From Aquabacterium sp. (lineage in GTDB: Bacteria; Pseudomonadota; Gammaproteobacteria; Burkholderiales; Burkholderiaceae_C): a stretch of 38,029 nucleotides of DNA. A program made the translations under genes and the position numbers. Of the stretch, positions 2 to 5,706 are shown piece by piece. The DNA lies in NCBI RefSeq assembly GCF_014378415.1, contig NZ_JACMNS010000053.1, positions 1-38,029 on the forward strand. Reading direction: 5' to 3'. Numbering within the stretch: the first letter of the stretch is position 1; the number at the start of each line of letters is the position of its first letter. The notes under the pieces were generated by a model. It saw nothing but the letters and a program-made list of their open reading frames with translations. It was not told the DNA's origin and did not search any database.

Positions 2-157
2 CAGTTTGTGCGCGTGGCCGAACCAGCTTCGCACACCGGGCTGGGCCTGGGGCTTTACATCACCCAGCAACTGGTGGAGGCGCACCAGGGCAGCATCATC
101 GTGGACAGTCAGTTGGGCGAAGGCTCGGTGTTCACGGTCACACTGCCTTTGGCGTGA
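2..157 (+). CDS. Sensor histidine kinase, C-terminal end only (partial)
   Basis: Only the last 51 residues are in the window; the gene begins before base 1. The reading frame shows the G2 ATP-lid box ([10 protein letters not shown]) followed by the usual end of a HATPase_c domain ([22 protein letters not shown]), so this is the end of the catalytic ATP-binding domain of a two-component sensor kinase. Nothing follows that domain, so no receiver or HPt is attached at this end. The stop (155-157) lies inside the 3' end of the convergent ABC exporter gene, a 20-base tail-to-tail overlap. Whether this kinase senses or controls the neighbouring peptide-export operon cannot be told from here. Confidence 0.85.
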
Positions 158-2321
158 TCAGCGGGGTCACGTTCGCGTGGCCGGCCTCGGGATCGCCATC
201 CGGTTGGGTTTGCTCCACCAGCTTGATCAGCTTGCCGCCCGACAGCACGTGGATCTCGTCGCCTTCGCTGAGGCTGTGCTGGCGGTGCGTGATGATGAAG
301 CGGCCGCAGCCCAGGTGGTTGATGGCCTGCTGCACATGGCGTTCGGTTGCGAAATCCAGGTGGCTGGTGTATTCGTCCAGCAGTAAAAAGCGCGGCTGCT
401 TGTACAAGGCCCTGGCCAGCAGCATGCGCTGCTTCTGCCCGCCCGACAGCGTGGCGCCCATGCCGGCCACCAGGGTCTGGTAGCCCATGGGCATGCGCAG
501 GATGTCCTCGTGGATGCAGGCCTGTTGCGCGGCCAGCATCACTTTCTCGGGACTGGCCTCGGTGTCGTTCATGGCGATGTTGTCGTAGATTGAGCAGGTG
601 AACAACTGGTCGTCCTGGAACACCGTGCCCAGCACCGATCGGAAGGCTTCTGAGCCGATGCGCTTGATGGGCACCCCATTGACCAACACCTCGCCCGATT
701 CAGGCGTGACCTGGCCCGACAACACCTTCAACAAGGTCGATTTTCCGCAGCCCGAGGGGCCCACCACGGCGATGGCCTGGCCACTGTGCAGGGTCATGCT
801 GATGTCGTCCAGCACGGGCGCTTCGCCCGCCGCGTAGCGGAAGGTGACGTTGCGCAGTGACAGGGTCATCGGGCCATCGGTCTTCAAGGAGGCCTCGGCC
901 TGGGCGGGCGAGGGCGGCTCGGGCTCGGTCAGCACGATGTCGGCCAGGCGCTCACCTTGCAGCTTGAGCAGGCGCAGGCTGATGACGCGCTCCAGCAGCT
1001 CGGAGGCGCGTTGCAGGAACTGGCTTTTGTAGGCCAGGAAGGCCACCAGCATGCCGATGGAGAACTGCTCGTCCAGGATCATTCGCGCGGCCAGGTAGAT
1101 CACCAGCGATTGTTCCACCGCGCTGATCAGGCCGTTGACGCCCTGGTACAGCAGGCTGATGCGCTGCTGCTTGACCGAGGCATTGACCATGGCCACCTGC
1201 TGGTTCATCCAGCCACCTACGCGCCAGCCAGGCTTGGCGAAGAACTTGATGGCGGCCACGCCGCGCAGGGTTTCCAGCAAATAGGTTTGCGCATTGGCCT
1301 CGCGCACGATGGTTTCTTCGGTCGCCTGCCGGTAGGGCTTGAACACGGCAAAGCGCACGATGGCCTGCAGCAAGGCCACGGCCAGCACCACCATGGCCAT
1401 CGTGGGGCTGTAGAAGAACATCAGGCCCAGCGTGATCAGACTGACCGCGCCATCCAGCACCACCTCGACCAGGTGGTTGGTGATCGTGTCCTGGATGGTG
1501 TGGACCGATCCGAAGCGCGACAGCACATCACCCGTGTGGCGCTTGTCAAAATAGGCCAATGGCAGTTTGAGCATGTAGCGGAACACGTTGGCGCTGGACG
1601 ACACGCGCCACGACAGGCTGGCCCCCAGCACGATCCAGGTGCGCACCAGGCGCGTGCCCAGCGACATCACCGCCAGCAGGAAGATGCCGATGGCCAGCAC
1701 GGCCAGCAGCGGCGCATCGCGCGTGACCACCACGTCGTCGATGATCCACTGGCTGAGCATGGGCATGAGGATGCCGAACACTTCCAGCACGATGGACAGC
1801 AGCGCCATTTGGCCGAAGGCGCGCCACAGGCCACGCTGGCCGGTGAACAACAGGCGCAGGTCAAACGGCGTTTTTTCTTGCTTCTTCTCGAAGCTGGTGC
1901 TGGGCGACAACTCCAGCGCCACGCCGGTGAAGTGCGGGCTGGCTTCCTTGTTGGTGAGGGTGCGCTCGCCCAGCGCCGGGTCGAGGATGGTGATGCGCTG
2001 CGCGTCGGCCTTGGTCATCACCACGAAGTGGTTCAGATCCCAATGCAACAAGCAGGGCGTTTGCAACTGCGGCAGCTCGTCCATCTCCAGGCGCACGGCG
2101 CGGTTGGCGAAGCCCAGTTGCTCGGCGATGTTCATCAGGCGGGCCAGCGTGGCGCCGCGCGATGACAGCTCGAAGCGGCGCCGCAAGGTCAGCAGGTCGG
2201 TCTCGTGGCCGTGCGCGCTGGCGACCATGGCCAGGCAGGCCAGGCCGCACTCGGCGGCTTCCGATTGCAGGAGCAGCGGCGCTGACTTGCGCGGCCACAA
2301 GGATAGGAGGTTGGTGCTCAT
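138..2321 (-). CDS. Peptidase (C39)-containing ABC exporter of double-glycine peptides
   Basis: A 727-residue inner-membrane ATPase that should cut the leader from a double-glycine peptide and export the product. The N-terminus is a C39 peptidase with its triad in place: Gln19 and Cys25 (in AAECGLAC), His98 (LNHFVV) and Asp114 (ILDPALGE). A six-helix exporter membrane domain follows (about 165-440), then an ABC ATPase with Walker [10 protein letters not shown] (521-529), signature LSGGQKQR (625-632), Walker B FLLLDE (645-650) and the H-loop His679. The residue after the Walker B Glu is Tyr where Ala is usual; function should not suffer. It resembles CvaB/RaxB. It starts one base after the HlyD-like gene, so the two are translated together. 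It is the last gene of the operon. The active peptidase triad separates it from HlyB-type exporters, whose C39-like domain is inactive. Confidence 0.95.
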
Positions 2322-2322
2322 G

Positions 2323-3579
2323 TCATAACTTGCCGCTGAAGGCGAACAGGGGGTCGAGCATCCAGCGGATCAGGCGGCGCCGGTCGATTTCAATGTCGGC
2401 CGTGAGCGTGTGGCCCGGCCGCAGGGCGATGTCGGTGCCATAGGCGCGCACTTTGGGTTGGTCCAGGGCCACGCGCACAATGAAGACCGCGCGCCGGTCG
2501 GTGCCGCCATTGGCGTTGCTGGTGGCCATGGGCACATCGGTCTGCGACACGCTGCGCACCGTGCCGTGGTATTGGCCAAAGCGCTGGTGAGGAAAGGCGT
2601 CGTAGCTGATGCGCACACGCTGGCCTGCCTTGATGAAGCCCACCGAGGTGCTGGGCAGGTAGAGCGTGGCTTCCAAGGCCGACCGTGTCGGCACGATGGA
2701 AGCCAGGGCGGCGTTGGCGTTGACGCTTTGGCCCGGCGTGGCCAGCAGGCCCGAGACGATGCCATCAACCGGCGCCTTCAGCAGCACCCGGCGCGCGCCA
2801 TGGCGTTGCACTTCTTCCTGCTGCAGGCTGAGCAGGTCGCGGCCCAGGCTGGCCTGGTCAATGCGGAGCTGGGCTTGCAGGCGCTGGCGATCGTCTTGCG
2901 ATGAGGCCAGGTCAGCTTCGGCCGCGCTGCGTTGGCGCTTGAGCGTTTGCAATCGCGCGGTCTGGTCCAGCAGCAGCTGGCGTTGCTGCTCGTACTGCAG
3001 GTCGGAGATGATGCGCTCGTCCAGCAGGGGCTTGAACTGGTCCACCAGCTTGCGGGCCGAGGCGATCTGCTGCGCTTGCAGCTGGGCCTCCTCACCCAGG
3101 GTCAACAGGTCGCGGCGGCTTTGGGCGATGCGCTGGTCCAGCGAAGCCAGGGACGCGGCGCTGGCCTGGGCCTGGCCTTCGGCCTGGTTGCGCATCTGGC
3201 TGCGCTGGCCTTCCAGGTTCATTTGCAACAGTGCTTGCGTGCTGCCCGCATCGCTGAAGCGTTCATTGCTGATTTCGGCGATCACGTCGCCGGCCTTGAC
3301 GGCCTGGCCTTCGGTGACCAGCACGCGCTGGACGATGCCGGGCTCCAGGGGCACGACCATGGCCACCCCATCGCGGGGCTGCACCACGCCTTGCACGCGC
3401 TCCTTCTTGGTGTAGTGGCCAAAGACCAGCACCGCCAGCACCAACACGGCCAGGCACAGGAAGAAGAAGGTGAGGCGCGCGGCGCCTACGGGGCGGATGT
3501 CAATGGAGGGGCCGGACGAGGTGTCTGAACGCGCGTCCAGAACCTCCTGGCGGAACAGGGATTGGGCAGGGGTACTCAT
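2323..3579 (-). CDS. HlyD/CvaA-family membrane fusion protein (type I secretion adaptor)
   Basis: A 418-residue periplasmic adaptor linking the ABC exporter to a TolC-type outer-membrane channel. There is a short cytoplasmic N-terminus, one transmembrane helix (about 35-55), then a first half-lipoyl segment (VVQPRDGVAMVVPLEPGIV). A long Gln/Ala/Leu-rich alpha-helical hairpin spans about 105-255. The second half-lipoyl part (LLKAPVDGIVSGLL) is followed by a beta-barrel domain. The end, LLDPLFAFSGKL, is typical of the CvaA/RaxA subgroup that works with C39-peptidase exporters. Its start overlaps the stop of the TolC-like gene by four bases, and its stop lies one base before the exporter start. 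The order and tight spacing support a single secretion complex. Confidence 0.93.
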   Translation of the reverse strand: MSTPAQSLFRQEVLDARSDTSSGPSIDIRPVGAARLTFFFLCLAVLVLAVLVFGHYTKKERVQGVVQPRDGVAMVVPLEPGIVQRVLVTEGQAVKAGDVIAEISNERFSDAGSTQALLQMNLEGQRSQMRNQAEGQAQASAASLASLDQRIAQSRRDLLTLGEEAQLQAQQIASARKLVDQFKPLLDERIISDLQYEQQRQLLLDQTARLQTLKRQRSAAEADLASSQDDRQRLQAQLRIDQASLGRDLLSLQQEEVQRHGARRVLLKAPVDGIVSGLLATPGQSVNANAALASIVPTRSALEATLYLPSTSVGFIKAGQRVRISYDAFPHQRFGQYHGTVRSVSQTDVPMATSNANGGTDRRAVFIVRVALDQPKVRAYGTDIALRPGHTLTADIEIDRRRLIRWMLDPLFAFSGKL

Positions 3580-5123
3580 GGCGTGCTCTCCACCAGCATG
3601 GGCAAGGGGGCGGGGTCGAAGAGGGGCATCAAGGGGGCAAGGTGGTCGGCATCGAGTTGGTCCAGCAGGGCCAGGATGTTGACTTGCGCGGCCAGGGCGT
3701 TGACGCGCGCGCTGACCAGGTTTTGCCGTGCGTTGTAGATCTGTTGCTGGGCATTGAGCAGGTCGAGGTTGGTGCGCAGGCCGGCCACGAAGGCTTTGCG
3801 CAGCGCGTCGTACGTGGCCGAGGCGGTCTGTTCAACCTGGCGTTGCAGGCCGATCACCTGGCGGGCTTGCGACAAGGTCTGGTAGGCGTCGCGCAGGGCG
3901 GCCTCCACCTGGGCTTGTGCTTCATCGCGCCGGGCCTGGGCCTGGATCAGCAGGGCGGCGGATTCGCGGGTGCGGCCTTGCTGCAAACCGCCTGTGAACA
4001 AGGCCCAGTTCATCTGCACGCCGATGGCGCGCTCCTGGGTGGTCTGGCGCTGGCTGAAGCCGTCCAGTTGGGGCACTTCGCGGACCAGACTGGTGCTGGC
4101 GACGGCATCGACCGTGGGCTGCCAGCGTTCGGCGGTGCGGGCCCGGTCGGTGGCGGTGGCGGCCTTGACCTGGGCTAGGGCGTCACGCAACGGGGGATGG
4201 CGGCTGGAGGCCAGCAGCAAGGCCTCGTCCAACGACGATACGGCGGTTGGCAGGTCCGGGCTGTGCTCGTGGAAGCCGGTGGCCAGCGTCACCGCCTGGT
4301 TGCTCAGCCGTTCCAACGTCAGCTTCTGGGTGGCCAGGCGGGTGTCCAGGTCCTGGACCGCGACCCGGCTCTGGTCGATGCGGGTGCGCGTTTCCAGCAC
4401 ATCCAGGATGGTGCCCGCGCCGGCTTGGAGGCGCCGGTCGTTGATGCGCCATTGTTCTTGCAGCAGATCCTGCTGGGCCAGCGTGAGGCGGCGTTGTTCG
4501 GCCGCTTCGATGGCCATGAGGAAGGCCATGCTCAGTTCGCGGGCCACGTTGGTCCGGCTGCCTCGGGCCTGCCATTGCGCCTGTTCGGCTTGGGCCGCTT
4601 GCGCCTGGGCGGTGGCTTGGTCGGCCGCGCGCCACAGTGGCAAGGTGGCCGATACCGACAAGGCCGTGGCGGGTGTGTTCACCGTGGTTTCGTTGATCTG
4701 CTGGCGGCGCCGGCTGGCACTGGCGCTGGCATCGGCCCGGGGCATCCAGGCGTTGGCCCAGGCTTGTTGGCTCAGGGCCTGCGCGGCCTCGGTGCCCGCG
4801 TCAAAGGCGCGGTTGGAGGCTGCTTGCTGGTTGGCCGCCAGCAGCATCTGGGGCCAGGGCGTGGCGCCTCTTGAAGCTTGGTCGCTTGCGGCTGGTGCAG
4901 GCTTTGAAGGGTGACGTGAGGTGGTCGGCCGGGAATCTTCCGGGGTGCTCAAAGAAGTGGCCCAGCGCAAGGCCAAGGCGCCCGACGCCAGGGTCGGAAG
5001 CGAGGTGAGCAGCAGGCTCAACGCCATGGCGAGTCGGCCCGCGAGGGCTTGGCATGCATGGCCAAGCCACCGATGTTCAGCTCGGAGAAGGGGTAGCACG
5101 GTGTGCAGGCGAGAGGAGGGCAT
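3576..5123 (-). CDS. TolC-family outer-membrane efflux protein
   Basis: A 515-residue outer-membrane channel component. It carries an N-terminal hydrophobic segment (about 31-52, MALSLLLTSLPTLASGALA) that fits a signal peptide with a long basic n-region, a Pro/Ser-rich linker, then two rounds of long Ala/Gln/Arg-rich helices as in TolC/OEP proteins. The repeats are recognisable by NVARELSMAFL with RRLQAGAGTILDVLETRT in the first half and ALRDAYQTLSQAR with AFVAGLRTNLDLLNAQQQIYNARQ (split here for length: AFVAGLRTNLDLL, then NAQQQIYNARQ) in the second. No strong ribosome site precedes either the first ATG (5123) or the internal ATG at 5027, so the start is uncertain. It follows the precursor peptide gene and a hairpin terminator and overlaps the adaptor gene by four bases. 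It should complete a three-part type I secretion machine. Confidence 0.9.
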   Translation of the reverse strand: MPSSRLHTVLPLLRAEHRWLGHACQALAGRLAMALSLLLTSLPTLASGALALRWATSLSTPEDSRPTTSRHPSKPAPAASDQASRGATPWPQMLLAANQQAASNRAFDAGTEAAQALSQQAWANAWMPRADASASASRRRQQINETTVNTPATALSVSATLPLWRAADQATAQAQAAQAEQAQWQARGSRTNVARELSMAFLMAIEAAEQRRLTLAQQDLLQEQWRINDRRLQAGAGTILDVLETRTRIDQSRVAVQDLDTRLATQKLTLERLSNQAVTLATGFHEHSPDLPTAVSSLDEALLLASSRHPPLRDALAQVKAATATDRARTAERWQPTVDAVASTSLVREVPQLDGFSQRQTTQERAIGVQMNWALFTGGLQQGRTRESAALLIQAQARRDEAQAQVEAALRDAYQTLSQARQVIGLQRQVEQTASATYDALRKAFVAGLRTNLDLLNAQQQIYNARQNLVSARVNALAAQVNILALLDQLDADHLAPLMPLFDPAPLPMLVESTP

Positions 5124-5161
5124 GGCCAGGTTGATGGATCACCAGCTTCAAGCGAGAAGTG

Positions 5162-5199
5162 AAAAAACCCGCCGGGCTGCGACGGCCGGGCGGGTTTTT
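5162..5199 (-). terminator. Intrinsic terminator / attenuator between precursor gene and export genes
   Basis: On the minus strand the arms CCCGCC (5189-5194) and GGCGGG (5168-5173) form a GC stem, extended by A/T pairs and followed by six T. The plus strand shows the mirror pattern (A run, stem, TTTTT), so it could work both ways. It sits 17 bases after the precursor peptide stop codon and 39 bases before the TolC-like start. Partial readthrough would give much peptide mRNA and little exporter mRNA, a common arrangement in peptide export operons; that role is inference. Confidence 0.75.
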
Positions 5200-5215
5200 C
5201 AAACCTTCAAGCTGC

Positions 5216-5395
5216 TCAGGGCGCAGCCTTCTTCGTCACGTAAGGGATCTTCGTGGTGGAGAACAGGTTGATCGCGTAGATGCCAGCGTTGATCAGGGGC
5301 ACGCCATAAGAGTTGTACTCGGCGCGGTGGATCGCATCGATGACGCTTTCGCCGCCACTGACTTGGGACACTTCCTGGGTGCTCAGAACTTGCAT
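5216..5395 (-). CDS. Double-glycine leader peptide precursor (bacteriocin/microcin or signal peptide candidate)
   Basis: A 59-residue peptide. The leader MQVLSTQEVSQVSGG matches the double-glycine consensus at every key place relative to the cut: Leu-12, Ser-11, Glu-8, Val-7, Val-4, Gly-2, Gly-1. Cutting after GG would release a 44-residue product beginning ESVIDAI and ending VTKKAAP, with a central apolar patch (GVPLINAGIYAINLF), no cysteine and a net charge near +1. The frame is open upstream to an ATG at 5443, but the internal ATG at 5395 is chosen because AAGGA lies six bases before it and the leader then begins exactly where family leaders do. It lies directly upstream of TolC-, HlyD- and C39-ABC-like genes on the same strand. 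No Cys or Ser/Thr cluster suggests a lanthipeptide, so an unmodified class II-type peptide is likeliest. Activity is unknown; a signalling role is possible. Confidence 0.85.
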   Translation of the reverse strand: MQVLSTQEVSQVSGGESVIDAIHRAEYNSYGVPLINAGIYAINLFSTTKIPYVTKKAAP

Positions 5396-5706
5396 GTTTT
5401 TTCCTTGTTTCAATGGTTTTTTGAACGTGCCTTTGCGAGGCACACATGGAATTTAACGATGGCCGTTGGGGCGCCATCTCAGGAAATCCCTGGCGACCCT
5501 TCAGATCGGCGGAGGAGATACCCCTAAATCAGCAAGTTTTAAATGTCAGTTTGTCAGATATTAATCCTGCTGTCGCTACTTAACCCCAGAAGGCGTCGCG
5601 GTGACGCGCCACGCCATTGCCAAAACTCGAATCGAGCCAGTACAGCACCGCGCAGGTGGCCGCGTTCATGCCCCTGGTGTCGGCGAACACCCTGTCACCG
5701 TGCGCT
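5396..5706. other. Intergenic region upstream of the peptide precursor gene
   Basis: About 310 bases with no convincing gene. The half nearest the peptide gene (5396-5580) is richer in A+T than its surroundings and should carry the promoter of the peptide operon; it has two CTGACA hexamers on the minus strand (5538-5554 region) but no clear -10 partner. The part from 5600 to 5700 reads open in two frames. The plus strand gives YSTAQVAAFMPLVSA, vaguely like a conserved segment of EamA transporters, and the minus strand gives ADTRGMNAATCAVLYWLDSS. Neither has a start site, and I cannot decide whether it is a gene remnant. Confidence 0.4.

Follow-up and report, generated by a model that had tools for sequence, protein, structure and literature searches.

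What does the small gene in front of a set of exporter genes in Aquabacterium sp. encode, and at whom is its product aimed? The question is raised by the beginning of contig NZ_JACMNS010000053.1 (assembly GCF_014378415.1), from which a stretch of 38,029 nucleotides, here called the window, was analysed. A first-pass annotation had described a self-contained export system for a candidate new bacteriocin/microcin or peptide signal. In the account that we favour, the leader of the precursor is removed and the peptide exported by the neighbouring transporter, the exporter locus serves as a cargo slot, the window's copy was relocated there from the metH locus, and the peptide is directed at the producer's own population. 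Taken as a whole, we give this account even chances of being right. The features on which it draws are as follows.

138..2321, minus strand: C39-peptidase ABC transporter (Pfam Peptidase_C39 116.2 bits, ABC_membrane 121.3 bits, ABC_tran 116.4 bits)
2323..3579, minus strand: HlyD-family periplasmic adaptor (Pfam HlyD_3, 71.8 bits)
3576..5123, minus strand: TolC-family outer membrane channel (Pfam OEP, 133.6 bits)
5162..5200, minus strand: terminator-like hairpin between precursor gene and tolC (fold −24 kcal/mol, z −2.1)
5216..5395, minus strand: precursor gene, type A, 59 amino acids (aa)
5219..5350, minus strand: mature peptide as predicted from the presumed cleavage site, 44 aa, core IDAIHRAEYNSYGVPLIN
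5351..5395, minus strand: double-glycine leader MQVLSTQEVSQVSGG, 15 residues
5396..5559, minus strand: conserved upstream block, presumed promoter/regulatory DNA, common to 7/7 type A copies examined at both loci
5580..5640, minus strand: remnant of the 3' end of a metH-locus neighbour gene, ending in DSSFGNGVARHRDAFWG and a stop codon, the scar of a copying event

The precursor gene and its exporter

Translation of positions 5216-5395 on the minus strand gave the leader MQVLSTQEVSQVSGG followed by the mature part ESVIDAIHRAEYNSYGVPLINAGIYAINLFSTTKIPYVTKKAAP, with a predicted mass of 4810.5 Da for the latter, a charge of approximately +1 and no Cys residue. With profile A2, made from 18 leaders of the genus including that of this precursor, the precursor was the sole match at E ≤ 10 in the 3.83-Mb genome (E 2.3e-7); the small double-glycine leader gene of the first-pass annotation is thus confirmed. 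A longer frame of 75 aa starting at an upstream GTG is disfavoured, since an AAGGA ribosome site lies 6 bases upstream of the ATG at 5395 and some relatives carry indels between this ATG and the GTG. Structure prediction of the precursor yielded a single long helix (mean pLDDT 64.9, pTM 0.33), which is too weak for use.

The Pfam matches of the TolC, HlyD and ABC proteins were all above the family cut-offs, and the three genes lie on the same strand with a tolC/hlyD overlap of 4 bases and a hlyD/ABC spacing of 1 base, as had been read at first sight. The ABC protein has the triad C25, H98 and D114, invariant in 24 orthologues, with a spacing equal to that of the catalytic triad Cys32/His105/Asp121 of CvaB (PMC9746304, in excerpt). 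Its ATPase motifs are complete (Walker A at 521, LSGGQ at 625). In the whole genome, this exporter was the only strong C39 match (120.7 bits), the one other C39-family match being weak (30.8 bits). Rfam at gathering scores gave no match in the window; the four transporter matches reported by PADLOC were put down to shared ATPase motifs, and the peptide had no match there.

The gene pair works like a known kind, a leader peptide with a C39 type I exporter. Such pairs are known in Gram-negative bacteria; outside the class II microcins, few of the peptides have, to our knowledge, a known role. The 15-residue leader would be recognised by the neighbouring C39-peptidase ABC transporter and cut after Gly15, and the 44-residue peptide would be released through ABC-HlyD-TolC. 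From gene anatomy and established knowledge of C39 exporters, processing and export by this exporter are very likely, because the triad is intact and CvaB-spaced, the leader is complete, the window's genome has one strong C39 exporter and one detectable leader peptide, and 20/22 assessable exporter loci have a leader gene next to tolC.

The first-pass annotation had placed the precursor directly upstream of the exporter. Strand and adjacency are as described, but the two do not form one tight operon: the gap to tolC measures 92 bases and holds a strong hairpin with a T-run, for which reason the peptide gene is probably its own transcription unit. The same hairpin is present at the exporter-linked copies of three further genomes (G031, G032, G038). 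In a regulon search of the own genome, the pattern of the conserved upstream block matched without mismatch at its own site only, and with 3 mismatches at one other site. An antisense frame over this block (5396-5559, plus strand; 40-55 residues, open in 7/7 type A copies) was judged non-coding on thin evidence from a stretch of 76 bases, with a pN/pS of 0.79 in its core, N-terminal parts and starts that vary among the copies, and a core block free of indels.

Peptide family and cargo slot

The precursor family was found in 17/42 Aquabacterium genomes, a count that includes G004 (E 0.6 in the homology search) because its full frame aligns; 21 genomes matched at E ≤ 1, and the other four were dropped as chance. 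Type A (59 aa) is present in G000, the window's genome, and in G016, G031, G032 and G038; the closely similar type A' (56-59 aa) in G002, G008 and G039; and type B (61 aa) in G001, G003, G004, G005, G010, G015, G017, G025 and G034. Types A and B have a common leader and the core IDAIHxxE(W/Y)NxYGxPLxN, with 16 invariant columns in the 17 aligned members. Among the named loci found with the precursor, 5/6 carry the label Aquabacterium and 1/6 the label Leptothrix. The record of the cultured type A strain CECT 9606 contains two copies, with mature parts that begin ESLIDAI and ESIIDAI.

The family is under purifying selection: dN/dS values were 0.05-0.28 in the 21 pairings that seven type A copies allow, the pooled mature part of these copies had a pS of 0.285 and a pN of 0.034, and every type A copy found had an unbroken frame. 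For the leader codons of the same seven copies the pooled pS was 0.056, far below that of the mature part and derived from few sites, which hints at a constraint on RNA or DNA there.

Relatives outside the genus were detected in 0/393 sampled family genomes. At the order level (399 genomes) there was no full-length relative, and two partial matches (E 0.03-0.05) covered residues 1-21 and 21-41 only; a search of 72,556 plasmids gave no match. Among viral contigs, one 162-aa phage frame (L153, 3001-3300) holds IIDAIHKAEYNG, which is very like the peptide core; it is leaderless and was taken as chance, as were two PDB matches (E 0.43 and 1.6). The first-pass remark that the mature peptide lacks Cys and any recognised similarity to named microcins agrees with the Pfam and NCBIfam libraries, in which no model matched the mature sequence at its cut-off. 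The family appears genus-restricted and without named relatives in the libraries searched.

Conservation at the exporter was followed by reading 24 orthologous tolC-hlyD-ABC loci of the genus, the window included; the 22 assessable loci leave out G017 and G019, where the contig ends just before tolC, and a distant G013 paralogue. The first-pass annotation had named a broken frame, or a leader not conserved next to the exporter, as the result that would count against it; the outcome was in its favour. Exactly one leader-bearing small frame lies beside the tolC start, at most ~410 bases away, in 20/22 loci, a figure that is no independent test for the four cargo types other than A and B because profile A2 was built partly from regular-expression leaders of the same loci (homology had identified types A and B). 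The frame lies on the same strand as tolC in 14/20 cases and is divergent in 6/20; in L036, L038 and L060 (3 of 20) the mechanically chosen tolC start overlaps it. The two loci with an empty slot, those of G004 and G016, belong to genomes that carry a family peptide elsewhere.

About six mature cargo families occupy this position: A; B; a Cys-containing type (G002, G008); a SWKQ type (G009, G021); a longer type (G022, G023, G028, G030); and a glycine-zipper type (G012). In the transporter tree, the A, Cys, SW and longer cargos track clades, and type B was not resolved as a single clade. Over a large part of Aquabacterium, the exporter locus is conserved as a cargo slot that would receive small leader-peptide genes, which probably bring promoters of their own. 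In G002 and G008 the slot is occupied by a Cys cargo and type A' is encoded ~28-32 kb away from the transporter, so that one exporter probably serves several peptides. Applied to 11 other Aquabacterium genomes, profile A2 gave 1-4 matches per genome at E ≤ 10, of which some are due to chance. The slot is shown within the genus only, because leader-like small frames were found by regular expression in just 3/15 exporters scanned outside it, one of the three being doubtful (45-47% identity; 16 stretches fetched, 15 scanned).

Some leader peptides lie away from the exporter. G004 carries a tandem pair, L081 and L088 (G004:C44:400373-400764), of an identical 59-aa glycine-zipper-like leader peptide beginning GILTSAVKTGAQAGVALGSGLYNAG, which resembles the G012 cargo. 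Far from the exporter, lone leader peptides are encoded at L065 (G008:C42:2616; 38 aa, Cys-containing) and L080 (G034:C2:363077; 61 aa).

Relocation between the metH locus and the exporter

Window positions 5214-5640 were 89.9% identical over 427 bases to the metH-locus copy of G032 (L052). Within this block lie the peptide gene, counted from its stop codon, the conserved DNA upstream of it (~164 bases), and the final codons, with the stop, of a gene unrelated to it. The intact metH-locus gene ends in DSSFGKAVARHRDALWG and a stop codon, the remnant in the window in DSSFGNGVARHRDAFWG and a stop codon. G000 itself has this gene intact on a different contig, and the sequence found on the far side of the peptide in L052 comes immediately after it, so that the metH site is empty. 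By comparison of these loci, the scar together with the empty and filled sites shows that the window's copy was placed at the exporter from the metH locus.

The peptide gene is at the exporter only in G000 and G031, at both sites in G038 and G032, and at metH only in G016, where the exporter slot is empty; in G032 one metH site is filled and one empty, and because this assembly is 9% contaminated the two sites may stem from two strains. Via one copy or the other, the peptide is present in 5/5 genomes of the type A exporter clade. The low dN/dS, together with the persistence of a copy in one place or the other, speaks for a peptide that is of use irrespective of where its gene lies and that the exporter can handle in trans. 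The system is therefore less self-contained than proposed at first: the dedicated exporter is real, whereas the peptide is probably transcribed on its own, has moved between two loci and lies away from the exporter in G016, and the exporters of G002 and G008 stand next to another cargo.

The spot behind the metH-locus neighbour gene is variable (L049, L046, L052, L125, L126), with the peptide present or absent; it holds a PEP-CTERM protein gene, a DUF6036 nucleotidyltransferase gene with a 137-aa gene, or other DNA. Next to the L052 copy, the 137-aa gene and the DUF6036 gene were rejected as companions of the peptide; the beginning of the former is found behind the empty sites of G000 and G032 (L126, L127) too.

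Target of the exported peptide

Outside the cell, the peptide would more likely be directed at the population that makes it, in the role of a signal or of an EbfG-like surface/biofilm factor, than kill competitors. The closest functional parallel, judged by analogy, is EbfG1-4/PteB of Synechococcus elongatus (PMC4997328, in excerpt), in which small proteins with GG/GA leaders are served by a C39 transporter and the mature parts are said to have no homologues in other cyanobacteria, as the Aquabacterium peptide has none outside its genus; that paper makes no mention of an immunity gene. The mature EbfG proteins are of ~6-7 kDa and encoded by four neighbouring genes, whereas the Aquabacterium peptide is of 4.8 kDa and from a single gene; its anatomy agrees with that of the biofilm peptides, a role in biofilms being putative.

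We slightly prefer a self-directed peptide over a bacteriocin because the mature part is under purifying selection and all five genomes of the type A clade hold it, and also because of tight gaps at L051 and a copied block without a further gene. At L051, the exporter locus of G032, the peptide gene lies between a histidine kinase gene and tolC with gaps of 236 and 61 bases, most of the 236 bases being the conserved upstream block; apart from the peptide gene with its upstream DNA and the scar, the copied 427-base block holds nothing gene-like. Several points weigh against self-direction. Several other slot cargos (glycine-zipper and Cys types) have the look of bacteriocins, and a turnover of cargos at one fixed exporter is in keeping with antagonism as well. 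Immunity genes can be unlinked. There is no linked receptor: the adjoining histidine kinase has many paralogues, and the EAL gene that adjoins the copies of G002, G008 and G039 also lies beside metH in G010, without the peptide. We regard as rather unlikely the more far-reaching version in which the exporter is a genus-wide cargo-slot exporter, the IDAIHxxE(W/Y)NxYGxPLxN peptide is a Gram-negative leader-type pheromone or matrix peptide, and its message is changed by swaps of promoter-plus-peptide cassettes.

A class II microcin-like bacteriocin, whose mature peptide would inhibit related bacteria and whose immunity gene would be unlinked or unconventional, is a possible explanation, with chances well below even. 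Four of the five components listed for class II microcins (PMC9746304, in excerpt; verified members mostly from E. coli) are present: an N-terminal double-glycine leader (GG or GA), as in MccV and relatives, a triad-bearing C39 ABC transporter, a membrane fusion protein and a TolC-type channel. Below cut-off, the leader has some likeness to models of class IIb/IIc bacteriocins (TIGR03949, best E 0.041, 5/17 members; PF10439, best E 0.084, 3/17), and the cargo varies by clade at a conserved exporter, zipper and Cys types included. The fifth listed component, a cognate immunity gene near the microcin, was not found in the vicinity of the type A copies. No credible conserved small gene stands beside these copies in lists that covered frames conserved in another locus or above 120 aa, which an unconserved or unlinked gene would escape, and the conserved antisense frame behaves as non-coding. 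The locus further differs from class II microcins in that tolC lies within the cluster and the mature sequence has no Pfam or NCBIfam match at cut-off. Strong purifying selection and clade-wide retention also speak against a bacteriocin. Some known microcins are conserved as well, which tempers this argument. With no linked immunity gene found, membership in class II microcins is unproven, and antibacterial activity is putative. Of the features and roles first proposed, leader, precursor and exporter are real, while the bacteriocin is unproven for lack of an immunity gene and the signal for lack of an identified receptor.

The contact-dependent glycine-zipper bacteriocin Cdz of Caulobacter (PMC5380434, in excerpt) likewise consists of type I-secreted leader peptides, and its transcription units are two and divergent. 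Among the Aquabacterium cargos, those of G012 and G004 resemble glycine-zipper peptides, whereas a GxxxGxxxG zipper, searched for by eye, is absent from mature types A and B; a further difference is the transmembrane immunity gene cdzI, which is linked to Cdz. A mainly open-access literature search returned no papers on class II microcins in Burkholderiales, and nothing relevant on Aquabacterium bacteriocins among the matches listed.

It seems improbable that the peptide is paired with the neighbouring EAL phosphodiesterase or hybrid histidine kinase as its receptor, and no exclusive partner, such as the co-occurring linked receptor of Gram-positive ComC-type pheromone systems, was found among these neighbours. 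At 3/3 type A' loci (G002, G008, G039) the peptide lies between metH and the EAL gene, followed by the latter on the same strand, but in G010 the EAL orthologue stands beside metH with ~145 bases between the aligned ends and no leader match there, and EAL matches at E ≤ 1e-5 are absent from 5/5 type A genomes. The specific EAL pair was rejected. In the other four genomes of the type A clade, an orthologue (80-87%) of the hybrid histidine kinase of the window is encoded near the exporter; these orthologues track the clade, the kinase persists in G016 although the peptide is missing at that site, and matches at E ≤ 1e-5 occur in 37/42 genomes, 32 of them beyond this clade and with weaker matches. 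A decayed or non-functional remnant beside a general exporter would fit the loss of copies at one site or the other, and is highly improbable given the dN/dS of 0.05-0.28, the unbroken type A frames, and the conserved upstream DNA and ribosome site.

Within a single genus, the slot of one exporter family thus presents about six families of mature peptides, together with the traceable copying of a single peptide cassette and both filled and empty sites for comparison. This natural series is tractable for asking what makes such a peptide a weapon, a signal or a surface component.

Positions 1-157 of the window are the 3' end of a histidine kinase gene cut by the contig end. In the relatives L050, L051 and L045, the equivalent gene encodes a receiver-HisKA-ATPase protein (by Pfam in L050) and ends a row with a CHASE3/GAF hybrid kinase gene and two short genes, convergent with the exporter genes; in our reading, the two short genes look like CheR- and CheB-like ones.

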